Shown here: one piece after another, positions 30,034 through 48,532 of the stretch | Layout: every line of letters starts with the position of its first letter | Position numbering within the stretch: the first letter of the stretch is position 1 | Assembly: GCA_023701125.1 (NCBI GenBank) | Contig: JAMPXO010000002.1 | Span: 1-64,000, forward strand | Length of the DNA stretch: 64,000 nt | Direction: 5' to 3' | Source of the DNA: Vicinamibacteria bacterium | GTDB lineage: Bacteria > Acidobacteriota > Vicinamibacteria > Fen-336 | Notes under the pieces: generated by a model | The model's input: only the letters and a program-made list of their open reading frames with translations | What the model was told of the DNA's origin: nothing | The model's database searches: none | Program-made: the position numbers and the translations under genes

Positions 30034-32247
30034 ATGGAGCTCAAGAAGCTCGGTAAGTACGAGATCGTCGCACGCCTCGGGGCCGGAGCGATGGGCGAGG
30101 TCTGGAAGGCCAAGGACCCCGTGCTCAATCGCTTCGTCGCCGTCAAGGTGATGTCGGCCAGCCTGGAGTCGGACGCCGAGCTGATCCAGCGCTTCCAGCG
30201 CGAGGCCCAGTCGGCGGCCCGCCTCAACCACGCCAACATCATCACGGTCTTCGACTTCGGCCAGGACCAGGGCAAGCTCTACATGGCGATGGAGCTGCTC
30301 GAGGGCAGCGACCTGAAGGAGGTCATCGCCCAGCGCGCGCTGCCCGAGCTGTGGGACCGCGTGCTGGTGATGGAGCAGATCGCCGACGGGCTCGCCTTCG
30401 CCCACGGCCAGGGCATCGTCCACCGCGACGTCAAGCCGGCCAACATCCACGTGCTGCCCAACGGCCGGGTCAAGATCATGGACTTCGGCCTGGCCCGCAT
30501 CGAGACGTCCGAGATGACCCACCAGGGCATGGTGATGGGCACGCCCAACTACATGGCCCCCGAGCAGGTGCACGGCAAGAAAGCCGACGCCCGCTCCGAC
30601 GTCTTCTCCTGCGGGGCGCTGTTCTACGAGCTGCTGTCCGGGCGCAAGGCCTTCCCCGGCGACAGCATGACGGCGATCCTCAACAAGGTTCTCGACGTCC
30701 AGCCCGAGCCGCTGACCCGGCTGGTGCCGGGACTCCCGGTGGAACTCGCCCAGATCGTCGAGCGCGCGCTGGCGAAGACCCCGGAAGGGCGCTTCCCGGA
30801 CGCGCGCCAGATGCTCGAGGCCGTGCGCAAGGTGCGCGAGCGCATGGAGAGCGGCGAGCTGGCGTCGGGCGCGATGGAGAGCGAGGCCACCGTCAACGGC
30901 CTCGACGCGCCGACGGTAGCGTCGCTCGACACCACGCCGTCCTCGTTGCGGTCGCGGACCGTGATCGGAGCCAACGCGCTCGACGTCTCGCGGCGGCCGC
31001 GCAGCGGTTCCAGCACCCGGGTGGGAGCGCCCACCCTGTCGGGCCAGGACCGCACCCAGGCCAGGGCCGGCCGCTCGCCGCTGCCGCTGGTCGCGGCCGG
31101 CGTGCTGGTGGTCGGTGGCGGCGCGGCGGCCTGGTTCCTGACCCGGCCTTCCGCGGCGCCGCCGGTGACGATGGCGCCGGCCGAGTTGGCCCGCGAACAG
31201 GTCGGCATTCTCAAGGAGAGCCTGGTCTCGAGCCAGATCGACCTGGCCCGGCTGAGCCTCGCGGACAAGGACTTCGCCGCGGCACAGAAGGCGGCCGAGG
31301 CGGCGCTGAAGGTCGACGCCGGCAACGCCGAGGCGAAGGCGCTGCGCGACGAGGCGCGGCAGCAACTCGCGGCCCTCGACAGCGCGGCCAGCGAGGCACG
31401 CACGGCCTTCGGGCGCGGCGACACGGCCGCCGCCTCGGCGGCGCTGGCGCGCGTGCTGGCACTCGATCCCCGTCACCCGGTTGCGGCCGAGCTGACCTCG
31501 AAGCTGAACGAGTTCTTCCGCGAGCAGGCCGCCGACGCGCGCAAGGCGATGGCCGACTCGCGCACGGCCGCCCGCGAGGCCACGAGCCAGGACGGCCACG
31601 CCCGCGCGCTGGCGCTGGTCAAGGAAGGCGAAGCGCTGTTCGCCTCGCGCGAGTACGCGGTGGCGGCCCAGAAGTTCCTCGAGGCCCGCGACGGCTTCGA
31701 CCGCGCGCGGCGCGCGGGTGAAGCCGCGGCCGACAAGGAGCGCCAGGTCCAGGCCGCTGCCGCGGCCCAGCGTCAGGCCCAGGCCCAAACAACGCGCCCC
31801 GTGGCACCACCGACGTCGGTGGCCGCGGCCCGGCCCGTGGCGCCGCCGCCGACCGCTCCGCCCGCCACCGCGGCAACGGCCCCGGCGAGCGTCGCGCCGG
31901 CGACGGCGCCCGTCGTCGTCAACCCGGTGACGCCGCACGAGCCCGCGGTGCGCCAGTTGCTCGCCGAGTACACCGCGGCGCTGGAGGGCAAGAGCATCGA
32001 CGGCTTCCGCGCCGTCAAGCCGAACCTCTCGGCCGACGAAGCGAAGCGGCTCTCCGCCTCGTTCAAGGCCATCAAGAACTGGAAGGTCGGCATCCAGGTC
32101 GAGTCACTGGTGATGGACGGCGGCAAGATCATCGTCCGCGTCCAGCGCCAGGACAGCGTCAACGGCCGCGAGACCCCGAAGGTGGTCCAGAACTTCACGC
32201 TCGTCCAGCAGGCGGGCGCCTGGAAGATCGAGTCGATCGGCCAGTAG
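30034..32247 (+). CDS. Membrane Ser/Thr protein kinase (Hanks type) with large extracytoplasmic domain
   Basis: A 737-residue kinase. The catalytic domain covers about 8-270: GAGAMGEV loop, Lys in VAVKVM, HRD catalytic loop H130-R-D132 with K134 and N137, D150-F-G and the APE motif in NYMAPEQ. All active residues are present. A Ser-rich linker leads to one transmembrane segment at about 350-370. The outer part holds TPR-like helices (ALKVDAGNAEAKAL, ALARVLALDPRHPVAAEL), an Ala/Pro-rich spacer and a C-terminal domain of about 95 residues resembling the SnoaL/NTF2 fold (LLAEYTAALEGKSIDGF...KIESIGQ). A -10-like TATGAT lies at 30003-30008, and GAGG precedes ATG 30034. A close paralogue is encoded at 33827-35509. 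Confidence 0.93.
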   Translation: MELKKLGKYEIVARLGAGAMGEVWKAKDPVLNRFVAVKVMSASLESDAELIQRFQREAQSAARLNHANIITVFDFGQDQGKLYMAMELLEGSDLKEVIAQRALPELWDRVLVMEQIADGLAFAHGQGIVHRDVKPANIHVLPNGRVKIMDFGLARIETSEMTHQGMVMGTPNYMAPEQVHGKKADARSDVFSCGALFYELLSGRKAFPGDSMTAILNKVLDVQPEPLTRLVPGLPVELAQIVERALAKTPEGRFPDARQMLEAVRKVRERMESGELASGAMESEATVNGLDAPTVASLDTTPSSLRSRTVIGANALDVSRRPRSGSSTRVGAPTLSGQDRTQARAGRSPLPLVAAGVLVVGGGAAAWFLTRPSAAPPVTMAPAELAREQVGILKESLVSSQIDLARLSLADKDFAAAQKAAEAALKVDAGNAEAKALRDEARQQLAALDSAASEARTAFGRGDTAAASAALARVLALDPRHPVAAELTSKLNEFFREQAADARKAMADSRTAAREATSQDGHARALALVKEGEALFASREYAVAAQKFLEARDGFDRARRAGEAAADKERQVQAAAAAQRQAQAQTTRPVAPPTSVAAARPVAPPPTAPPATAATAPASVAPATAPVVVNPVTPHEPAVRQLLAEYTAALEGKSIDGFRAVKPNLSADEAKRLSASFKAIKNWKVGIQVESLVMDGGKIIVRVQRQDSVNGRETPKVVQNFTLVQQAGAWKIESIGQ

Positions 32248-33826: not shown

Positions 33827-35509
33827 TCAGCGGCGGCGCGCGCGCTCGAAAAGATCGCGGGCCTCGTAGAAGCCCCGCACCGCACTCGCCTTCTTGCCCG
33901 CCCGCGACGCGGCTTCCGCGTCCTTGACCCGCTGCGCGCCTTCGCCGAAGGCCGGGGCGCGATCCGCCCCCGCCGCCTCCGAGTCCTTGCGCACGTCGCT
34001 CGCCGCCTCGCGCGCCTGCTCGACCTGGGCGACGGTCACGGCCTCCTCGAAGCGCGGCGCCATCAGCGCGGCCTCGGGGTGGCGCGGGTCGAGCGCCACC
34101 ATCTCGACGAAAGCTGCGGCGCCGCCGGCCGCGTCGGTCGCGGCCTTCGCCGCCGCGGCGGCCTTGTCGGCGCCGTCCACCACCTTGCGCGCCTGATCCA
34201 GGATGCGCTTGGCGTCGGGGTTGGCCGGGTCCATCTTCAGGGCCCGCTCCGCGCGGCGCGCCGCCTCGCGATAGTCGCCCGCGGCCAGTTGCCGCGACGC
34301 GACCTCGACCTCGGTGCCGGCCACGGCCTGGGCCAGCGAGTCGACCTGGGCGGGCCGCGTCGGCGGCGGCGCCTGCGGCTCGGGCGCCGGACGCAGGGCC
34401 CAGATCGCGCCGGCCAGCACCACCACGGCAGCCACGCCGCCGCCCACGAACAGCGGCGTGCGCGAGGGAGCCTCGGCGGCGACCGCGGTCTGGACCCGAC
34501 CGGGCCGGCTCGAACCATGCGACGCCGGGCCGCCGGGGCGCGAGCCGGGCCGCGAACCGGGACGCGAGCCGGGCCGTGAACCGTAGCGGCTGGGCTCGCT
34601 GCCGGCGGCTCCCGGCGTGGTCGGCTTCAGCGTCGGCTGGCCGGAGCGCTGGCGCGCCGGCGGCTCGGCCAGCGGCTCGTCGCCGCGGCCGTCCGCGATC
34701 GCCTGCCGCGCGAGCTGCAGCGCGGCCCGCAACTGGCCGGCGTCCTGGTAGCGCTCTTCGGGGTCCTTGGCCAGCGTCCAGACCAGGATCTCCGACAGCA
34801 CGAGCGGGACCTCGGGCGAGATCTCCTTGGCCGCCGCCGGGTCCTCCTGCATCACCTTGAACAGCACGGCGTGCATGGAGTCGGCTTCGAACGGCTTCTT
34901 GCCCGTCAGCAGCTCGTAGAACACCGCGCCAGCCGCGAACACGTCGGAGCGGGTGTCCGCGCGTTCGCCGCGCACCTGTTCGGGAGACATGTAATGGGGC
35001 GTGCCCATCACCGTGCCCGTGCGCGTCATCTCGGAGCCGCCGACGCGGGCCAGGCCGAAGTCCACGATCCGCACCTCGCCGCCGGGCTGGACGTGGATGT
35101 TGGCCGGCTTGACGTCGCGGTGGACGATGTCCTGGGCGTGGGCGAAGGCGAGGCCATCGCACACCTGCTCCATGATCCGCAGCCGCTCCTCGAGGCCCGT
35201 GACCGCGCGCTTGATCAGCAGCGTGCGCAGGTCGTCGCCCGAGAGCAACTCCATGGCCATGAACAGGCTGCCGTTTTCTTCTCCGAAATCATAGACGGTG
35301 ATGATGTTCGGGTGGTTGAGGCGGGCCGCAGACTGGGCCTCGCGCAGGAACCGCTGGCGCTGGCTGTCGTCGCCACCGGACTCCGGCACGATCGTCTTGA
35401 TGGCAACCTCGCGGCCGAGCACCTCGTCGTAGGCCTTCCAGACCTCGCCCATGGCGCCCTGCCCGATCTTGCTGTCGATTCGATACTTGCCGATGCGTTC
35501 CGGCGGCAC
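33827..35509 (-). CDS. Membrane Ser/Thr protein kinase, paralogue of the kinase at 30034
   Basis: A 560-residue kinase. Catalytic elements are intact: GQGAMGEV, VAIKTI, IVHRDVKPANIH, IVDFGLARV and HYMSPEQ. The linker carries a perfect short repeat, SRPG four times in a row (DNA about 34530-34590). One transmembrane segment lies at about 351-372 (LFVGGGVAAVVVLAGAIWAL). The outer part has TPR-like helices (ALKMDPANPDAKRI, MVALDPRHPEAALM) and a long Ala/Lys-rich helical tail; the NTF2-like end of the other kinase is missing. Wording shared with that kinase, such as the start of the ATP loop, MAMELL and ALDPRHP, shows recent duplication. GTG 35509 is the start, with GGAG 6 nt upstream. Confidence 0.92.
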   Translation of the reverse strand: MPPERIGKYRIDSKIGQGAMGEVWKAYDEVLGREVAIKTIVPESGGDDSQRQRFLREAQSAARLNHPNIITVYDFGEENGSLFMAMELLSGDDLRTLLIKRAVTGLEERLRIMEQVCDGLAFAHAQDIVHRDVKPANIHVQPGGEVRIVDFGLARVGGSEMTRTGTVMGTPHYMSPEQVRGERADTRSDVFAAGAVFYELLTGKKPFEADSMHAVLFKVMQEDPAAAKEISPEVPLVLSEILVWTLAKDPEERYQDAGQLRAALQLARQAIADGRGDEPLAEPPARQRSGQPTLKPTTPGAAGSEPSRYGSRPGSRPGSRPGSRPGGPASHGSSRPGRVQTAVAAEAPSRTPLFVGGGVAAVVVLAGAIWALRPAPEPQAPPPTRPAQVDSLAQAVAGTEVEVASRQLAAGDYREAARRAERALKMDPANPDAKRILDQARKVVDGADKAAAAAKAATDAAGGAAAFVEMVALDPRHPEAALMAPRFEEAVTVAQVEQAREAASDVRKDSEAAGADRAPAFGEGAQRVKDAEAASRAGKKASAVRGFYEARDLFERARRR

Positions 35510-35545: not shown

Positions 35546-36397
35546 CTAAGGGGCGCCCGCGATGCTGTCAACAGCGGAAGTGGCCTGGGTCACATTTCGC
35601 TCGCCCGGGATCGCGACTGGCGCGGCCACGACGATTCCGCCCGACTCGTGGATCTCGTGGCGAATCACCCTGAGGCCGGCCTGCTCGATCTCGGCGACCA
35701 GTCCTTCGGGTCGAAACAGGCGCTGGTACGACGCCATCCCCGCGGCGGGCATCATCAACTCGTCGCCCGGCTCCGGCTGCCAGTCGCTGCCCACCAGCCG
35801 TGCGGCGAGGCCCGCGACTCGCACCGCGCGATCGGCCCCCCGCATCCGCTGCGGGATGTAGCTGAGCATCAGGCGACCGCCGGGACGCAGCGCTCGGGCC
35901 GCGGCCGCCAAGGCGCGCAGGCGGTAGCGCCGATCGGGCACGTAGCTGAAGCAGAACCAGGAGAAGATCACGAGGTCGTAGGCCCGTGGCAGGGCAGGCT
36001 CGTCCTCGAGTGCCGCCACGATCAGCGTCGACTCGAAGCCGGATGCCGTCACCCGCTCCCGCGCTTTCGCCACGGCCTGCGGCGCGATGTCGAGGCCGTC
36101 GACGACCAGGCCGCGGGCGAGCAGGGCGAGCAACTCGCGACCCGCTCCGCAGCCGACGACGAGCACGGCCTGGCCGGGCCCGAGCAGCCGATCGAGCGCG
36201 GCCCGCTCCCACTCGAACAGCTCGGCGCTGAGCGCCACGGGCGAGCGGTTGAACGGCTCCCAGGCGCGGGCGGCGCCCGCCATCAACTCCCCGCGCGACA
36301 GCAGCGCCACGCCCACGTACTCGCAGAGACGGACGGCCCGGGCCCCGAGCCGGCTCAGCGCACCGAGGCCGCTGAACGCGGTCAGCCGCGCGCTCAC
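35546..36397 (-). CDS. Class I SAM-dependent methyltransferase
   Basis: A 283-residue soluble protein. Motif I is VLVVGCGAGRELLALLARG, with an acidic residue at the end of the next strand (VDGLDIAPQAV). The following part (LPRAYDLVIFSWFCFSYVPDRRYRLRALAAAARALRPGG) is the usual post-I/motif III region of small-molecule methyltransferases. The first 45 residues are a helical lead without clear function. The substrate is unknown. GTG 36397 overlaps the stop of the rhodanese-like gene by 4 nt, so the two are translated together; it ends 36 nt before the kinase gene start. Confidence 0.85.
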   Translation of the reverse strand: MSARLTAFSGLGALSRLGARAVRLCEYVGVALLSRGELMAGAARAWEPFNRSPVALSAELFEWERAALDRLLGPGQAVLVVGCGAGRELLALLARGLVVDGLDIAPQAVAKARERVTASGFESTLIVAALEDEPALPRAYDLVIFSWFCFSYVPDRRYRLRALAAAARALRPGGRLMLSYIPQRMRGADRAVRVAGLAARLVGSDWQPEPGDELMMPAAGMASYQRLFRPEGLVAEIEQAGLRVIRHEIHESGGIVVAAPVAIPGERNVTQATSAVDSIAGAP

Positions 36398-36930
36398 CGC
36401 GCCGGGCCGCGGGCTGCGGGGACCAGCAGGAAAGCGACCGACGCCGACCACGGGTGGACTTCGCCAAACGCGCCGCGCTCGCCGGCCAGGGGCCGGCCCT
36501 CGTTGGCCCAGGCGAAGGCGCTGCCGTCCAGGTTGCGCACGTCCGTCAGCCCCTGGGCCTGCAGCCTCCGGGCGAGCCCGGCGCTGCGCCAGCCCACCGA
36601 GCAGTAGACGACGATCGGCGTGGCGCGCGACAGCTCGCGGAACAGCCGCGGCTCGTCCTCGGGCGGCGCGTGCAGCGCGCCCGGCAGGTGGGAGACCGCG
36701 TACTCCGCAGCGGAACGTGCGTCGAGCAGTAGCGGCTTGCGCGAGGACGCCAGCTCCGCGGCCAGCTCGGTGGTGGACACCGTCGGCACGTCGGCGAACG
36801 AGACCGCGATCAGCGTGCGCAAGGACGTCATGCCGAGCGGCTGCGCGTAGTGGACCACGATCACGACCGCGGCTAGCGCGAGCGCGACACGAATCCATCG
36901 GGCTGGACGCAGTCGATCCCGCACGCGCAC
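36394..36930 (-). CDS. Membrane-anchored rhodanese-like protein
   Basis: A 178-residue protein with one N-terminal transmembrane segment (about 12-30) followed by a rhodanese domain. The fold is marked by PLLLDARSAAEYAVSHLPGA and by the active-site loop VVYCSVGWRSAGLA, whose Cys would carry the persulfide. The domain then closes with LQAQGLTDVRNLDGSAFAWANEG. The domain should face the periplasm or outer side of the inner membrane. GTG 36930 is the listed start; a second GTG lies two codons later. It heads a two-gene unit with a methyltransferase, overlapping it by 4 nt, and is divergent from the large orphan gene at 36953, from which only 22 nt separate it. Confidence 0.85.
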   Translation of the reverse strand: MRVRDRLRPARWIRVALALAAVVIVVHYAQPLGMTSLRTLIAVSFADVPTVSTTELAAELASSRKPLLLDARSAAEYAVSHLPGALHAPPEDEPRLFRELSRATPIVVYCSVGWRSAGLARRLQAQGLTDVRNLDGSAFAWANEGRPLAGERGAFGEVHPWSASVAFLLVPAARGPAR

Positions 36931-36952: not shown

Positions 36953-39658
36953 ATGCGACCCCGATCCCGTCTCCGATACGCGTTCACGCTGGTCGGCATC
37001 GCAGCGACCACCGCGGCGGCCGATGCGCCCACGGCCCCGCTGCCGGCGCCCGCCGGGCAGATCGCCGAGGCCGTCGGCCTGCGCGGTGTCGCCCTCGAGC
37101 CGCGGGACCTGACGCTGCTGGTCGCCCGCCGCGTGCACGTGCCGTGGGGTGAACGCGGCCGCGGCGTGGCGGTGCACCAGCGGCTGGCAGCGCTGTGCGC
37201 CGCCGGGCCGCTCGGCGAACCGATGCCCACGCTGCTCGAGGCCGATCAGTGGTCGGCGCTGCTCGATCGCTCCGTGCCGCGTGCGACGCTCGGCTGCACG
37301 CTGCTCACGGACGCCCGCGCAGCGCTCGTCTATCACGGCCTGGCGGGCCTGTCGGACGCCACCCGCGAGGCGCTGGCCCGCGACCGCGAGTCGCTGCGCG
37401 CGATCGCCCGCTCCTCCGCCGCCGCCTTCGCCGCGTTCGGGCCGGCGCTGCAGGTGAACGAGGGGAGGGTCCAGGTGCCCGGCGGCGACGCGGCGCGCGC
37501 GCTGTGGGAGAGCCTGCTCGAGGCCCGTGCCGACCAGCCCGCGCGCTTCGCACGCGCGCTGCTGGGACGCGCGGGCGGACGCGCCGCCTTCCTGTACGCG
37601 ACGCTTTCGGCGATGGAGCCGGTGGCGCGGGCGTGGGCGCTGGGCCTCGACGAGGCCGACCTCGAGCAGCGGCGGCAGCGTTTCGAGGCGCTGGCCTCCG
37701 CATTCGCGGCCGAGGAGGCGTGGTGGGATCCCGGCCGCGCCCCGCTCTCGCGGCGTCGCGTCGACGGCGCCCGGGTGCTGACCGGCGCGCGGCTGGGGCC
37801 CGACGGAAAGCTGGCCGCGCCGGCGACGCGCGGCTTCTGGGCAGCGGCCTTCGCGGGGGCGAGCGAGCCGGGGAGCGACGCGACGGCCGTCGACGCGGCC
37901 TGGCTCGTGCGCGAGATCGCCCAGGCAGCGATCGAAGATCAAGCCGCGCAGCGCCTCGGTCAGTTCCAGTTCGCGCAGCGCCTGCTGGCCACGGGCGCGC
38001 CGGCGGACGCCGACGCGCTGGCGGCGGTCCGCAGCGCGGGCGACCGCCCGGCGCTGGCGCTCGGGCTCGAGGGGCTCGCGGCTTCGCCCGCGCTCCACGC
38101 CGCAGCCCGCCGGCGCGCGACCGAGCTGGCCGCGCTCCCGCGCGAGGCCGCGGCCCCGGCCCTCGTCCAGTTCCAGGCGGCACTGGCGCTGCTGCTCGAG
38201 GCGCGTCGCAACGGCCTGCTCGAGGTCGCCGCGGCGCGCGATCTCGCGGCGGCGGTGGTCGGCCCGGAGGTGAAGCGCGAGGGTTACGGCGGGCAACTCG
38301 CCGCCGTGCTCGACGAGCGGCTGCTGCCGGCGCTGGCCGCAGCGACGTACGGTTCCATCGAGCCCGGCGACGCGGACACGGTCGTGGCTCGCGGCCTGAC
38401 GGGCGTGCGGCCCACCTCCGCGCCGCGCCCGACGTTCCGCTTCGAGGGCCTGACCTTCAGCGCCGACGTCGCCGGCGCCCGGGCCCGCCGCCTGCTGGCC
38501 TTCGCCGAGGCGCAACTGGCCCCCCCGCTCGCGGCGGCGCTCGACTTCTCGCGCGCCAGCCGCCGCTTCCAGGGAGCCGAAGACGCCGCCACGCTCGACG
38601 CCCTGCGGGCCGCGGCGCGCGCCCTGCCGGTCTTCGTGCCACCCGCCGCCACCGCGCCGGTGGACGCGCCACGCCGCGTCGCCGAGGCGCTCGAGTCGCT
38701 GCGCCGCGGCGGCACCTCGCGCGCGGGCCTGGCCGCGCGGCTGGTGGCGGCCTCCGACGCGGCGGTGGCCGACGCCCTGGCCGAACTGCTCTACGCCCTC
38801 CACGCCAGCCCGCTGCAGGAGCGGGCCCCCGAGTCGCTCGCCCGCCGCCACGAGCTCGGCCTCGGCTTGTCGGGCGCCGACGAGCGCGCCGCCTTCGCGT
38901 TCGCGCTGCCCCGCGCCGTGTCGGGCGCAGGCCGCCCGTGGCGGGTCGAAGGCTCGCTGCTCGGCCTGGAGTCGGGCTTCGCGCGGGTCGCGTTGCGCCG
39001 CGCGTCGCCGGACCCGCCGGCGGAGGCCCCGACCCTCGGTGACGCCGAGCGCCATTCGCTCGGCGTGTGGGTCGGCCAGATGGCCGCGTTGGCGCCCGGC
39101 GCCGTGCCGGACCCGGCCCTCGTGCGCGCGGCCTGCGAGCGCGGGCGCGCGGCGCTGCGCGAGCGGCCCGCGGCGCTGGACGAGCTGGGGCTCGGGGCCT
39201 GGCGCGAAGCACGACTGCGCGCGGCGCGCGGCGCCGGCGAAGACGTGGAGCCGATGCTGGGTCTCGCCGAGTTGGCCGCGCTCGGAGGTGTTGCGTGGCC
39301 GACGGGTTTCGGCGCGTCGCGCCTGCTGCTGGAGCACACGCTCGCGCTCGCGCCACCGCAGGCGACCGCCGCGTGGGAGTCGTTCGGGCGCCGCGACGGG
39401 CTGCTCGCCGAGCGCTCGCTCGACCTGCCGCTGCGGCTGCTGCTCGCGCTCGACGCGCGCGGGCTGCCGGCGGAGCTGCTGCCCGCGCTGTTCCCCTACG
39501 CCGCGCAGGACGCCTTCGAGCACGTGCGCCTGCTCCACGCGGGCGACGACCTGGCCCTCGGCCGCTTCGCCCGCGAGTTGGAGGAGCACCGCGTCGACGA
39601 CTACCTCGCCGCACTCGCCGGCGAGGGCGGCCTCAGCGAGGGGGGGGGATCACGATGA
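36953..39658 (+). CDS. Large exported helical protein, unknown function
   Basis: A 901-residue protein with a signal peptide (about 1-23, ending AATTAAADA). The rest is mostly Ala/Leu/Arg-rich helices without any motif I can name, plus a few Gly/Pro breaks, for example in the central RPTFRFEGLTFSADVAGARARRLL. It has no enzyme signature, no transmembrane segments after the signal, and no recognisable repeats. A TATACT box at 36932-36937 could be its -10 element, leaving a very short leader. A run of nine G lies just before its stop, and its TGA overlaps the next ATG by 4 nt (ATGA), so it is coupled with the VWFA-type gene at 39655. The three genes to 43584 look like one unit of surface or periplasmic proteins. 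Confidence 0.78.
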   Translation: MRPRSRLRYAFTLVGIAATTAAADAPTAPLPAPAGQIAEAVGLRGVALEPRDLTLLVARRVHVPWGERGRGVAVHQRLAALCAAGPLGEPMPTLLEADQWSALLDRSVPRATLGCTLLTDARAALVYHGLAGLSDATREALARDRESLRAIARSSAAAFAAFGPALQVNEGRVQVPGGDAARALWESLLEARADQPARFARALLGRAGGRAAFLYATLSAMEPVARAWALGLDEADLEQRRQRFEALASAFAAEEAWWDPGRAPLSRRRVDGARVLTGARLGPDGKLAAPATRGFWAAAFAGASEPGSDATAVDAAWLVREIAQAAIEDQAAQRLGQFQFAQRLLATGAPADADALAAVRSAGDRPALALGLEGLAASPALHAAARRRATELAALPREAAAPALVQFQAALALLLEARRNGLLEVAAARDLAAAVVGPEVKREGYGGQLAAVLDERLLPALAAATYGSIEPGDADTVVARGLTGVRPTSAPRPTFRFEGLTFSADVAGARARRLLAFAEAQLAPPLAAALDFSRASRRFQGAEDAATLDALRAAARALPVFVPPAATAPVDAPRRVAEALESLRRGGTSRAGLAARLVAASDAAVADALAELLYALHASPLQERAPESLARRHELGLGLSGADERAAFAFALPRAVSGAGRPWRVEGSLLGLESGFARVALRRASPDPPAEAPTLGDAERHSLGVWVGQMAALAPGAVPDPALVRAACERGRAALRERPAALDELGLGAWREARLRAARGAGEDVEPMLGLAELAALGGVAWPTGFGASRLLLEHTLALAPPQATAAWESFGRRDGLLAERSLDLPLRLLLALDARGLPAELLPALFPYAAQDAFEHVRLLHAGDDLALGRFARELEEHRVDDYLAALAGEGGLSEGGGSR
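39640..39648 (+). repeat. Run of nine G at the junction of two coupled genes
   Basis: Nine G occur in a row within the last codons of the 901-residue gene, 7 nt before the next gene's ATG. The run also acts as part of that gene's ribosome binding region. A one-base insertion or a -1 ribosomal shift here would put the first gene in frame with the second, since the second gene's frame is open upstream across the run. Confidence 0.6.
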
Positions 39659-40800
39659 GGGCCTGGTGGCTGCTGGTCGCGCTGGCCTGGGGCTCCGCCG
39701 CGGACGAGTTGCGGATCGCTGCGCCGGTCGCCTCGGATTTCCTGAGCGGCCCGGTGCAACTGGTCGCCGCGGTCGACGACGCGGTCCTCGCGTCTCAAGT
39801 CGCGCGGGTCACCCTGTTCGCGGACGGCCAGGCGGTCTGCACCCGCGAGCGCGCTCCGTGGGCGTGCGCGTGGGACGCCGGCGCAGAGGTCAAGCCGCGG
39901 GTGGTGCGCGCCGTCGCGGTGCTGCGCGACGGTCGGCGGCTGGCGGCCTCGGTCCGCACCCGCGGCGACGCGCTGATGATCGGCACCGAGGCCAACCTGG
40001 TGCTGGTCACCGCGACCGTGATCGACGGCGACGGCCGCTTCGTGAAGGGCCTGACCCGCGACTCGTTCCGGGTCGCCGAAGACGGCGGGCCGCAGGAGAT
40101 CGCCCACTTCATCGGCCCCGGCTCGGCGCGCGAGGTGGTGGCCGCAGTCGACATGAGCGGCAGCATGGCGGAGGCGATGGGCGGGCTGCGCGACGCCGTC
40201 AAGGGCTTCCTGCGCACGCTGCGCCCCGAGGACTCGTCGACGCTGATCGCCTTCAACGACTCGCTGTTCACGCTGGCCCGGCGCGAGACCGACCCGGTCG
40301 CCCGCGAGCGCGCCGTCGACCGGCTGGCGGCGTGGGGCGGCACCGCGCTGTACGACGCGCTGCTGCACGGCATGGAGCTGCTGGCGCGGCAGAAGGGGCG
40401 CAAGGCGCTGGTCGTGTTCACCGACGGCGAGGACATGTCGAGCCTGGCCAGCGTGTCGCAGGTCGAGCGCCGGCTGGAGACCTCGGACGCGCCGGTCTAC
40501 GTGATCGGCCAGGGCCGCGGCACCGACAGCCCGGAGCTGCAGCGGATCATCCGCCACATCTCCGAGCTCTCGGGCGGCCGCTCGTTCCACACCAACCGCC
40601 AGGAAGAGCTGGAGCGGGCCTTCGCGGAGATCGCGGAGGAACTGTCGAACCAGTACCTGCTGGCATACGATCCGAAGAACGCGGAGCGCGACGGGAGCTG
40701 GCGCACGATCACGGTCACGGTGCCGGGCACCCGCCACCACGTGCGCGCACGGGCGGGCTACCGGGCGGTGGCGCCGCGGGCCGGTCGCGGGGGCGACTAG
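39655..40800 (+). CDS. VWFA-related Acidobacterial domain protein
   Basis: A 381-residue protein with a signal peptide (MRAWWLLVALAWGSAADE). An early beta domain (about 20-105) precedes the VWA-like domain from about 110 on. The metal site is D166-x-S-x-S170 (VVAAVDMSGSM), with the Thr/Gly loop GGTALYDALLHGMELL and the strand RKALVVFTDGEDMSSL. The end has the usual Acidobacterial layout ELSNQYLLAYDPKN...RARAGYRAV. Such proteins probably bind other proteins through the metal site at the cell surface or periplasm; a specific partner is not known. ATG 39655 overlaps the preceding stop (ATGA). The next VWFA-type gene starts 3 nt after its stop. Confidence 0.9.
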   Translation: MRAWWLLVALAWGSAADELRIAAPVASDFLSGPVQLVAAVDDAVLASQVARVTLFADGQAVCTRERAPWACAWDAGAEVKPRVVRAVAVLRDGRRLAASVRTRGDALMIGTEANLVLVTATVIDGDGRFVKGLTRDSFRVAEDGGPQEIAHFIGPGSAREVVAAVDMSGSMAEAMGGLRDAVKGFLRTLRPEDSSTLIAFNDSLFTLARRETDPVARERAVDRLAAWGGTALYDALLHGMELLARQKGRKALVVFTDGEDMSSLASVSQVERRLETSDAPVYVIGQGRGTDSPELQRIIRHISELSGGRSFHTNRQEELERAFAEIAEELSNQYLLAYDPKNAERDGSWRTITVTVPGTRHHVRARAGYRAVAPRAGRGGD

Positions 40801-40803
40801 GGG

Positions 40804-43584
40804 ATGAAGCCGATGAAGACGAGCCCGAGGGCACGCGCGGCCGGGACCGCCGCGGTGCTGGCCGTGCTGGCCGCGGCCGGCGTGGGCCCGGTCCGCGCGA
40901 TGCAGCAGACCCCCACCTTCTCCGCCGAGATCGACGTCGCGGCGCTCGACGTCAACGTCGTCGACAAGGACGGGCGCCCGATCCGCGACCTGAAGCCCGA
41001 GGAATTCCAGGTCACGGTCGACGGCAAGCCGCGCAACGTGGTCTCGGCGCAGTTCGTGGACCTCGGCGGCACGCCCGACCCGGAGGCGTCGCCGACGCCG
41101 GCGATCGCCCACTACAGCTCGAACGAAAACGCCGTGGCCGGGCGCATGGTGCTGTTCGTGGTCGACGAGAGCTCGATCCGCCCCGGCGGCACCCGCATGG
41201 TCGCCGACGCGGCCGGGCGGCTGCTGAACAAGCTCGGGCCCCAGGACCGCTCGGCGTTGCTCACGCTGCCGGGACGCGGCAGCCAGCAGGTCGACTTCAC
41301 GCCCGACCACGCCAAGGTGCTGGCGGCGCTGAAGAAGACCCAGGGCCGGGCGGCGCTCTCGGCCCGCCGCCGGGTCAGCCTCGGCGAGGCGTTGGCGATG
41401 GACGACAAAGACATGATCGTCACCGAGGACGTGCTCAACCGCGAATGCCCGCCGGAGATGGATCCGAACCAGCGCGCGCTGTGCATCAACGACGTCGAGG
41501 GCGAGGCGTTCCGCACCTCCCAGCTCTACCGCGAGGGCAGCCGCCAGTCGCTGAAGGCGCTGGCCGCGCTGTTCGACTACCTGCGCGGGATCGAGGGGCC
41601 GAAGACGCTGATCTTCATCAGCGAGGGTCTCGTCAACGAGTCGACCCGCGAGCTGCGCGAGCTGGCGGTCAAGGCCTCGGCCGCGCGGGTCAGCTTCTCC
41701 GCGTTCTCGCTCGACGACTCCGGGTTCGCCGACGCCTCGCTCCGCGACGCGCCGCAGGGCGTCACGGGCGACATCCAGATGAAGGGCCTCGGCCTCGACA
41801 CCCTGGCCTCGCTGGCCCGCGGCAGCGTGTACAAGATCACGGCGGCCGGCGACAGGGTGTGGGATCGGCTGGCGCGCGAGCTGACGGGCTACTGGCTGCT
41901 CGGCTTCGAGCCGCAGCCCTCGGATCGTGACGGCAAGGAGCACGACTTCCGCGTCAAGGTCGTGCGCCCGGGCGCCGAGGTCCGCGCCCGGCGAGCGGTG
42001 TCCATTCCCGAGGCCGACCCCGAGGGCAAGCGCGATCGCGAGACGCTGCTCGCCATCCTGCGCGCGCCGTTCCCCGCCACCGAGTTGCCGATCCGGGTCG
42101 CGACCTATGCCCTGCGCGACGAGGCGACGGGCAAGCCCAAGGTCGTGGTCAGCGCCGAAATCGGCCGCGCCGGCAGCGCGCCCGAGGCGCTCTCGGTCGG
42201 TTTCGTGCTGATCGACTCGGCCGGCAAGATCGCGGCCAACGTGATCCAGCGCGCGGAGGCGGGCGCCCGCTCGCCGGTGCCCTACCTGGGCTCGGCGACG
42301 GTCGAGCCGGGGCTCTACACGCTGAAGCTGGCCGTGCTCGACCGACGCGGACGGCGCGGCAGCGTCAACCACCCGGTCAAGGCCTCGCTGCACTCGATCG
42401 GCGGCGTCGAGCTGGCCGACCTGATGCTGGCCCCGCCGCTGACCCAGGCCGAGCAGCGGCTGCGGCCGGGCGTGGACCTGACGGTCAGCGGCGGCGTGCT
42501 CGCCTACACCGAGTACCACGGCAAGACCGACAAGGTCGAGGTGCGATTCGAGGCCGCGGAGAGCGAGAACGGGCCCGCGCTGCTGACGGTGCCGGCGCGC
42601 GCGACCCAGGGCGCGACGCCCGCGCAGTTCGCGGCCCAGGCCGTGCTGCCGACGGGCCTGCTGCCGCCGGGAGCGTACGTCGCGCGGGCGGTGGTGGTCG
42701 TCGACGGCAAGGCCCAGGGCCAGCTGGTCCGGCCGTTCACGCTGCGGCCGCGGCAGCCGGGCGAGCCGCCCGCGCCGGGTGGCGGCATCTCGCGCGCCGG
42801 CCTGGCGCCCAGCCTCGCCCGCTTCGACCGCCGCGAGGTGCTCGACCCGGCGGTGATCGGCCCGCTGCTGACGCCGCTCGAGGCGCGACCCGAGATGCAG
42901 CGCAGCGCGGTGCTGCGCAAGGCGCTGGACCAGGTCCGCGCGGGCCAGGCCCAGGTCGTGCTCGACACGCTGTCCGAGGGCGCGGAAGACTCGCTGTCGC
43001 TGTCGATCCTGCGCGGCGTCGGCTTCCTCGCCCGCGGCGACACGCCCGCGGCGACGACCCAGCTCAAGGGGGCCGTGCGCCACGGCTCGGACTTCGCGGC
43101 CACCCCGCTGCTGATCGGCGCCTGCTACGCCCATCGTGGCGAGGACCTGCAGGCGGCCGGCGCGTTCCAGACGGCGATGGCGCTCGGCCTCGAGTCGCCG
43201 ACGATCGCGGCCCTCACGGGCGAGGCGCTGCTGCGCGGCGACCAGCCCGAGCGCGCGCTCGAGCTGCTGACCGAGCTGGCGGCGAAGTACCCGACGGAGG
43301 CGCGGCTGCAGCGTTCGCTGGGCATCGCCCAGGCACTCGGCGGCCAGGACGAGAAGTCGCTGGCGACGCTGACGGGTTATCTCGACCAGAACCCGACGGA
43401 CCTCGGCGCCTCGTTCGTGGTGATGCGCCTGCTGTTCGAGCGCTACGCCCAGGGCAAGGCGACCGACCCGCTGGCCGGCGACCGCGAGCGGCTGACCCGC
43501 TACGCCAAGGCCTACGTCGACGGCCGGGGCCCCCAGCAGGAGCTGGTGGCCCAGTGGCTCAAGTACCTCGACAAGACGAAGTAG
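40804..43584 (+). CDS. VWFA-related Acidobacterial domain protein with C-terminal TPR repeats
   Basis: A 926-residue protein with a signal peptide (about 1-33, ending GPVRAM). The VWFA-related domain starts near residue 42 (DVAALDVNVVDKDGRPIRDLKPEEFQV) and has a partial metal site (FVVDESSIRPGG) that lacks the full DxSxS. It ends with ARELTGYWLLGFEPQ and FRVKVVRPGAEVRARRAV. A middle beta-rich part follows, then a TPR-like helical region (residues about 690-920: LDTLSEGAEDSLSLSILRGVGFLARGD, LQAAGAFQTAMALGLESPTIAAL, QRSLGIAQALGGQDEKSLATL). ATG 40804 is used; ATG 40813 is possible. Exported scaffold or adhesion role is inferred. It forms one unit with the preceding two genes. Confidence 0.9.
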   Translation: MKPMKTSPRARAAGTAAVLAVLAAAGVGPVRAMQQTPTFSAEIDVAALDVNVVDKDGRPIRDLKPEEFQVTVDGKPRNVVSAQFVDLGGTPDPEASPTPAIAHYSSNENAVAGRMVLFVVDESSIRPGGTRMVADAAGRLLNKLGPQDRSALLTLPGRGSQQVDFTPDHAKVLAALKKTQGRAALSARRRVSLGEALAMDDKDMIVTEDVLNRECPPEMDPNQRALCINDVEGEAFRTSQLYREGSRQSLKALAALFDYLRGIEGPKTLIFISEGLVNESTRELRELAVKASAARVSFSAFSLDDSGFADASLRDAPQGVTGDIQMKGLGLDTLASLARGSVYKITAAGDRVWDRLARELTGYWLLGFEPQPSDRDGKEHDFRVKVVRPGAEVRARRAVSIPEADPEGKRDRETLLAILRAPFPATELPIRVATYALRDEATGKPKVVVSAEIGRAGSAPEALSVGFVLIDSAGKIAANVIQRAEAGARSPVPYLGSATVEPGLYTLKLAVLDRRGRRGSVNHPVKASLHSIGGVELADLMLAPPLTQAEQRLRPGVDLTVSGGVLAYTEYHGKTDKVEVRFEAAESENGPALLTVPARATQGATPAQFAAQAVLPTGLLPPGAYVARAVVVVDGKAQGQLVRPFTLRPRQPGEPPAPGGGISRAGLAPSLARFDRREVLDPAVIGPLLTPLEARPEMQRSAVLRKALDQVRAGQAQVVLDTLSEGAEDSLSLSILRGVGFLARGDTPAATTQLKGAVRHGSDFAATPLLIGACYAHRGEDLQAAGAFQTAMALGLESPTIAALTGEALLRGDQPERALELLTELAAKYPTEARLQRSLGIAQALGGQDEKSLATLTGYLDQNPTDLGASFVVMRLLFERYAQGKATDPLAGDRERLTRYAKAYVDGRGPQQELVAQWLKYLDKTK

Positions 43585-43637
43585 CGACGCGAGCCGCGCC
43601 GAGATCGTCCCGCCCCGTGACATTTCTCGCGGAACTT

Positions 43638-46900: not shown

Positions 46901-48532
46901 TCATTCGAGGGGTGGCGTGCCGGGTGGAAGGCGCCGCACGGTGACGACACCGGAGTCGAGATCCTCGACCACGACGCCGGCCTCCGCATCGCCGACGGCG
47001 GACTCGATCCGGATGCGCAGTTCGTGGTGCGGCTCCGCGCTCGCGGTCGCGTGGAACTCCTGCTGGCGAACCGTCGCGGCGGCTCGCTCCCCCTGGAGCG
47101 CGATGACCACTCGGAACCGCCGCTGCGCCTCGACCAGCATCGGCCGCCTGGGGATCCGGATGCGCACGAAGGTCTCGGGGCCCGCCTGCCGCGGCTCCAG
47201 CACCCGATCGATCACCGCTCCCAGGTCATCCTGCTCCAGGCCCAGGACCAGAGCCGACAGCGCGCGCTGCGCGCGGCCGGCCGTCGCGTCGCGCAAGGAG
47301 TAGGACTCGCGAAAACGCAGCTTCAGCCGGGGGGAGTCGGGGACCTCGACGCGCAGGCGTCGTCGTTGCCCCGACTCTCCGCGCGGCGTGATGCCGAGCA
47401 CGTAGCGGCCCTCCGCCTCCGCCCTCAGGCGCTTCGCGACCGCGCCGGCCTCGAGCCCTTTCAGGGTCGGGAAGCCGCCCGTCTCCCGGGCCAGCAGGTG
47501 GAGCAGCGCGGTGACGTTCGCATCGCGCACGGCGTCGTTGCGCGCGGAGGGCACGAAGCGACGGCTGCCACGCGACACGTCCATCGCTGCGGGGCTCGCC
47601 AACCCGCGGGCGTCGACCGGGTAGAACGTGACGCGGGCGCGATTGGCCCGCGCCGCGACCTCTTCGAGCAGCCGCGACGTGTCCCGCTCCAGCATCGCCG
47701 CGTGCAGTCGTGACCGCTCGTCGTGGGAGAGGTCGGGACAGATGTCCGTCAGCTGATCGTGGAGCTGGATGCCGGGACGCTGTTCCAGGCCCTCGCTCAG
47801 ATACACGAGCGACTTGCGACCGTCGATCGCGGCCATCGCGTCCACCAGCAGCCGCAATCGCTCGGCTGCAGCCTGCGCCTCGCCGACACGGCGCGAGGCA
47901 TAGGCATCGACGACCGAGAGCAGCAGTGGCACTGCGCATCCCTGCACCTCGAGCACGCCCTCGAGCTGCTCGAGTGCCACCCGTTCGTCCGCGATCGCGG
48001 CCGGCACCGCACGGCCGACTCGCGCCAGGGAATCCAACGCGGCGCCGACCTCGTCGGCTCGACTCGCCAGTGCCGTGAGGGCACGCGGGCCACTGTCTTC
48101 ACCCGCCATGAGGACGAGCCGCCCACCTCCCGCAATGTGGTCCAGCGACAGCACGCGCGCGTACTCGAGAGCGCGGCGGCGGCCCGCCGCCCCCAGCAAC
48201 ACCGGATCGACGTAGACCACGAGCACGGGAGGCGTCTCGCGGCGCAGCGCCGCCGGCCCAGCGCCGGCAGCCTGTCCAGGCTCGGCGGCCTGAGACGCAG
48301 CGCTGAGCTGCGGCCCCGAGCACACCTCGAGGGCTGCGGCCTGCCCCTCGTCGAACACCCGGAACGCCTCGCAGGGCAGGCCGGCCACGGGCCGCCCCTT
48401 GCGATCCGTGACCCGCACGTCGACCGAGACGATCTCCGCCTCGACGACGGGCACGACGCCCGCAGACGGTTCCTGACCCGCCGCGAGAAGCGGCGCCAGG
48501 ATCAGCGCCAGGTGATTCAGTGGCAGCCGCAC
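46901..48532 (-). CDS. VWFA-related Acidobacterial domain protein, third copy
   Basis: A 543-residue protein with a short signal-like N-terminus (LPLNHLALILAPLLAAGQ). The VWFA-related domain starts at about residue 30 with the lead EAEIVSVDVRVTDRKGRPVAG, and its first strand LVVYVDPVLLG lacks the DxSxS metal site. Later parts are typical: IDGRKSLVYLSEGLEQRPG, RARVTFYPVDARGL, LARETGGFP and AEGRYVLGITPRG. The C-terminal half is beta-rich. GTG 48532 is the start, and its first codons overlap the end of the cation transporter gene by 16 nt. The gene is separate from the two copies at 39.6-43.6 kb and runs the other way. Protein binding at the surface or periplasm is inferred. Confidence 0.85.
   Translation of the reverse strand: MRLPLNHLALILAPLLAAGQEPSAGVVPVVEAEIVSVDVRVTDRKGRPVAGLPCEAFRVFDEGQAAALEVCSGPQLSAASQAAEPGQAAGAGPAALRRETPPVLVVYVDPVLLGAAGRRRALEYARVLSLDHIAGGGRLVLMAGEDSGPRALTALASRADEVGAALDSLARVGRAVPAAIADERVALEQLEGVLEVQGCAVPLLLSVVDAYASRRVGEAQAAAERLRLLVDAMAAIDGRKSLVYLSEGLEQRPGIQLHDQLTDICPDLSHDERSRLHAAMLERDTSRLLEEVAARANRARVTFYPVDARGLASPAAMDVSRGSRRFVPSARNDAVRDANVTALLHLLARETGGFPTLKGLEAGAVAKRLRAEAEGRYVLGITPRGESGQRRRLRVEVPDSPRLKLRFRESYSLRDATAGRAQRALSALVLGLEQDDLGAVIDRVLEPRQAGPETFVRIRIPRRPMLVEAQRRFRVVIALQGERAAATVRQQEFHATASAEPHHELRIRIESAVGDAEAGVVVEDLDSGVVTVRRLPPGTPPLE

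Follow-up and report, generated by a model that had tools for sequence, protein, structure and literature searches.

The window, a stretch of 64,000 nucleotides from a Vicinamibacteria genome, carries three closely packed genes on the forward strand, here called A, B and C. The unit comprises the following features:

36953-39658 (+), gene A, 901 aa
39655-39658 (+), ATGA overlap of the A stop and the B start
39655-40800 (+), gene B, 381 aa, stop codon TAG
39712-39885 (+), Big_7 Ig-like domain of B (Pfam; residues 20-77) with C62 and C71
39979-40767 (+), TIGR03436 VWFA domain of B (residues 109-371) with D166-S168-S170, T230 and D257
40804-43584 (+), gene C, 926 aa
40912-41994 (+), TIGR03436 domain of C (residues 37-397) with a degenerate MIDAS and the cysteine pair C215/C227
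43006-43464 (+), TPR region of C (residues 735-887), matches under cut-off
43615-43632 (+), terminator-like hairpin, weak, 31 nt past C

The lengths and packing of the three reading frames agree with a preliminary description of the locus: the stop codon of A overlaps the start codon of B, and the TAG of B is followed by 3 nt and then by the start of C. The same description assigned signal peptides to all three products, and inspection by eye is consistent with this: each N-terminus is signal-like, with basic residues, then a hydrophobic segment, then an A-x-A-like end. The hairpin is a weak signal, as two such hairpins were found in the region with 1.2 expected by chance. The unit is flanked upstream by a divergent ORF (36394-36930) that appears rhodanese-like by eye, and downstream, past the hairpin, by an ORF that appears oxidoreductase-like by eye. 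Another TIGR03436 VWFA gene (47300-48445, minus strand, 113 bits) lies about 4 kb downstream and is unlinked to A.

By score, both B (167.6 bits) and C (117.1 bits) are members of the acidobacterial VWFA family TIGR03436 (cut-off 81.25 bits), whose model says nothing about A. B also exceeds the cut-offs for Big_7 (33.2 versus 24.1 bits) and for Pfam VWA_CoxE (30.4 versus 26.4 bits), the latter reflecting a general VWA likeness. The two proteins had been described as different VWFA types, one with an intact metal site and the other with a partial site and TPR repeats, and the profile comparison supports this distinction. The MIDAS of B is complete (DxSxS/T/D), whereas C of the window retains the aspartate and the first serine of the site and has lost the second serine and the aspartate of motif 3. 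The TPR matches of C, at residues 804-866, remain below the Pfam cut-offs (best 25.5 bits of the 32.7 required).

Gene A, which had been reported to match no known family, is an orphan in all the collections searched: there were no families at E ≤ 1 in Pfam and NCBIfam, no matches at E ≤ 0.01 in PADLOC, and no match of the A profile to PDB sequences (best E 0.47). When the 16 members of the family alignment were compared with Pfam, none had a match at E ≤ 0.1. Relatives of A were nevertheless found. An initial search detected the family in 18 of 60 genomes, including the genome of the window, and a profile built from 16 members (A1) was positive in 73 of 193 genomes of the window's class and in 50 of the 396 genomes that sample the phylum, both counts including the genome of the window and fragments. 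A member from another class (P0001) shares 18% identity with the reference row, and the distant members retain W, PG-W, Y, H and G signatures in the alignment over classes. Thus, A is a genuine, previously uncatalogued protein family, and a large one to be without a model in Pfam or NCBIfam.

Outside this sample, plasmid searches matched neither A nor B. With A as the single query, a scan of 84,980 species, which detects close relatives only, revealed no relative, and a likewise insensitive scan of all species with the A alignment revealed seven loci, all from genomes of the class already sampled. Among these seven loci, the A-B arrangement is present in all seven and C in six, the remaining one (L110) stopping inside B. 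No relative of A outside the Acidobacteriota emerged from these two insensitive scans, which are a weak test of restriction to the phylum.

The preliminary description had also called A helical. AlphaFold2 models of A (pLDDT 57.5, modeled with 8 sequences) and of a homologue (pLDDT 63.3) are indeed mostly helix, but they are poor models in which the fold has low confidence. With these low-confidence models, Foldseek returned best E-values of 0.21 and 1.3, respectively, and no hit at E ≤ 0.001, and VIA-align gave Z-scores of at most 7.8 and 6.8, within its stated helical background.

To compare the genomic contexts, regions around A were fetched from 72 of the 73 positive genomes of the class (G051, with a tiny match, was omitted) and from 17 of the 33 genomes of other classes with a match, and were scored with profiles for A, B and C. 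The adjacency counts exclude fragments of A in which the profile match stops short of position 800 (L044, L052, L146, L162, L163, L168, L169 and L171), the shorter 5' piece wherever A is divided between two ORFs, and loci where no A could be counted (L099, L102 and L170). Several features of the A-B pair stand out: (i) in the window's class, B is the gene directly behind A in 72 of 77 rows, or in 71 of 76 unique rows, since L086 is one gene split into two ORFs and counted twice; (ii) in the other classes, a VWFA domain lies right behind A in 14 of 15 rows; and (iii) the B subfamily was found, within the class sampled, only in genomes that carry A. Three of the five exceptions in the class are cut by contig ends (L048, L143 and L147); in the plus-strand copy of L138, B lies 2.4 kb from A, and in L137 the gene order is B-C-A. 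The sole exception in the other classes (L095) is also cut by a contig end and has a VWFA gene upstream of A. The order B-C-A in L137 recurs in L162, and in both loci the match to C starts near profile position 400, so that the VWFA part is absent.

The third feature is based on a B subfamily profile (A5, E ≤ 1e-75) that detected 67 of the 193 class genomes, all 67 of which have A. With 10 candidates scored per genome, the subfamily was not found in the 120 class genomes without A, and the hypergeometric probability of this co-occurrence is 2e-45, with kinship ignored. The six genomes with A and without B (G425, G427, G051, G050, G484 and G493) contain partial A matches only, and each of the eight genomes in which B matched twice has at least two A places. 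The genome of the window has 25 TIGR03436 matches, 18 of them above the cut-off; assuming rather than counting about 4,700 genes, the 25 matches correspond to a chance of about 0.003 per gene of a same-strand VWFA neighbor downstream. Since A and B are adjacent near-universally in the relatives, this adjacency is not due to chance.

In a quick tree of VWFA proteins (61 of 62 rows, L098 being omitted), the 24 included B proteins of the class form one group (SH-aLRT 94). The A-linked B proteins of the class and of other classes group with two paralogues from the genome of the window (L176 and L177), with a support of only 84 for the joint branch, and the other VWFA paralogues fall apart from this group. 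Despite this weak grouping of two paralogues with A-linked proteins, the genome of the window, searched in full, has a single match to A. Besides A, B, C and antisense frames, the most recurrent neighbors among 56 compared loci were MacB/FtsX permeases (9 loci, 6 families), Oar-type receptors (7 loci, 4 families) and an RND-like efflux protein identified by eye (5 loci, 4 families), the other clusters being rarer; a GC filter removed some ORFs from this comparison, including B of the window.

The preliminary description had proposed that all three genes form a dedicated assembly, and had suggested checking whether both VWFA types follow every homologue of A. For B this expectation largely holds, but C does not follow the same pattern: it lies behind A-B in 54 of the 72 class rows with the pair and in none of the 14 such rows from other classes. 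At least 3 of the 18 class rows without C (L129, L139 and L145) stop at a contig edge. Moreover, C-type proteins (E ≤ 1e-60, 4 candidates scored per genome) were detected in 119 of the 193 class genomes, compared with 73 that have A. The A-B pair is therefore the core dedicated unit, wider in distribution than the A-B-C trio, and C is an accessory to it. The two observations that the preliminary description had named as evidence against its proposal, a widespread occurrence of A without VWFA neighbors and a clear match of A to a known family, were not found.

The arrangement of domains differs between classes. Three genomes of other classes (L100, L103 and L104) encode A and a VWA domain as one fused protein: in L100, a single ORF of 1281 aa comprises TPR, A and VWFA (157 bits), and L103 and L104, from the same genus, combine A and VWFA in proteins of 1616 and 1558 aa, respectively. 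In the latter two loci, a separate VWFA gene upstream has DxSxS, T and D, whereas the VWA domain fused to A lacks them; this combination of an intact and a degenerate domain suggests the same two kinds of VWA as in B and C. The fused VWA domain of L103 forms a long branch among other VWFA proteins in the tree. In L094 and L098, TPR repeats precede A. A candidate pseudo-VWA domain noticed by eye at the N-termini of these two proteins gained no support from either the B or the C profile; the latter picked up nothing but the TPR portion, and in L094 weakly.

The metal sites of the two VWFA proteins differ in conservation in the window's class. The D-S-S-T-D residues of the MIDAS are invariant in all 73 B sequences chosen at ≥350 bits. 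Among 52 C sequences, the first aspartate is always present, serine occupies the third position in 5 and the fifth position is I, F, L or T in all; the motif-3 aspartate occurs in none, being replaced by glutamate in 42. Cysteine pairs are invariant in both proteins, C62/C71 of the Ig-like domain in 22 of 22 B sequences and C215/C227 in 16 of 16 C sequences, and these pairs fit an oxidizing compartment.

The A-linked VWA domains of other classes are less uniform, D-x-[ST]-x-S being kept in 10 of 15 and missing in 5. Among the 10, threonine replaces the first serine in L090, L094 and L100, and a pattern search did not recover the T and D motifs in every protein. The five that lack the pattern (L089, L091, L092, L093 and L096, Terriglobia-like) still adjoin A; the site of L089 reads D-T-S-N-Y, with alanine in place of the threonine and asparagine in place of the motif-3 aspartate. 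The metal site, although strictly kept in B of the window's class, is therefore not essential to A-B pairing everywhere.

Conserved adjacency is evidence of joint function and not of contact, and several explanations of this joint function were considered. According to one of them, A is a secreted enzyme, such as a helical-toroid carbohydrate-active enzyme or another hydrolase, to which B and C contribute subunits for substrate binding or anchoring. Many large exported enzymes have accessory partners, Ig ones among them, and A has conserved histidine, tyrosine and tryptophan residues (H633, Y614, W100 and W185). However, A matches no enzyme family, and the 13 columns conserved at ≥90% over classes (alignment of 13 rows with 15-54% identity to the first) include no Asp, Glu, Ser, Cys or Lys, hence no obvious catalytic acid or nucleophile, in an alignment that is unsure at such distance. 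We consider this explanation unlikely.

Exported VWA and TPR proteins that are encoded together also resemble the Bat operon, in which BatA and BatB are VWA proteins, BatC and BatE contain TPR repeats, and a MoxR ATPase accompanies the VWA genes. Accordingly, A-B-C could be a variant of the BatABCDE envelope system that aids folding or stress tolerance, and the module types agree (a VWA domain with MIDAS, a second VWA domain, and TPR). In contrast to the Bat operon, there is no recurrent MoxR-like neighbor here and an orphan helical protein is present instead; no ATPase occurs among the 14 recurrent neighbor clusters listed for the 56 loci, the neighbors in the window having been identified by eye; and the BatA model NF047508, which was built for Leptospira and has a cut-off of 380 bits, gives B 22.6 bits. 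As we also know of no Bat counterpart of A, a Bat-type system is still less probable than a secreted enzyme. Another partial likeness is to RavA-ViaA and CoxD-CoxE, where a large helical part lies beside, or is fused to, a VWA domain. VWA partners of this type are cytosolic and work with an AAA+ ATPase, whereas A and B have signal-like N-termini and no ATPase neighbor.

Two Ser/Thr-kinase-like ORFs, recognized by eye, lie close together upstream of the unit (30034-32247 on the plus strand and 33827-35509 on the minus strand). These would be the receivers if A and B were a sensory or regulatory pair in which B captures a ligand and alters A, which then signals to the kinases. The kinase cluster was observed in only 3 loci from 3 families, the window included, and is not conserved beside A, which makes such a pair very improbable. 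Finally, chance adjacency in acidobacterial genomes rich in VWFA genes, such as the 25 matches in the genome of the window, is refuted by the adjacency counts, the co-occurrence counts and the gene fusions, and its probability is negligible.

Given that A and B are either neighbors or fused, they are likely to act together in a single complex of the cell envelope. In the fuller reading that we prefer, with a probability of roughly 0.45, A and B form one exported complex, with A as a helical scaffold, B as its partner and C as a TPR adaptor. This complex would reside in the periplasm or on the cell surface. The VWA domain of B could grip A, the large scaffold, or share with A the binding of a third ligand; within the window's class, either would probably occur via the MIDAS of B, and in at least one other lineage, where the site is degenerate, the contact would have to be metal-free. 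The Ig-like domain of B, with its probable disulfide, may serve as a stalk. In the window's class, C, with its dead metal site and TPR repeats, would usually join as an adaptor or regulatory subunit.

A broader generalization is offered more tentatively: the Acidobacteriota may possess a phylum-wide, so far undescribed envelope machine, in which an orphan helical scaffold is combined with a VWA domain that is MIDAS-active in most sampled lineages and frequently counterbalanced by another VWA domain whose MIDAS is dead, with the helical, VWA and TPR modules in separate genes in one class and fused in other classes. Judged from sequence, the unit is a new VWA-based one that includes a new protein family, A, with a putative scaffold function. 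Among the papers listed for acidobacterial VWFA or VWA proteins, no title or abstract opening concerned the A-B unit, passages of PMC10380794 and PMC3174227 have no bearing on it, and our search of the literature on acidobacterial VWFA proteins found no paper naming a partner for them. A strictly linked partner such as A provides a concrete, testable handle on the role of one VWFA subfamily in the Acidobacteria, which are abundant in many soils.

Several individual loci depart from the common arrangement. In genome G050, a remnant of A is retained as a 174-aa ORF (L052, 8405-8926) and the search for the B subfamily was likewise negative, so the pair may have been lost together. In L140 (972-4772), the frame of A continues into B, which is interrupted further on by a frame break; this may represent a fusion with a frameshift or an assembly error. 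C is encoded on the opposite strand in L041 and L132, still adjoining B. Tandem duplicates of C lie behind A-B in L035 (1293-4187), L036 (1163-6805), L038 (14945-17380) and L124, the last with three matches to C.
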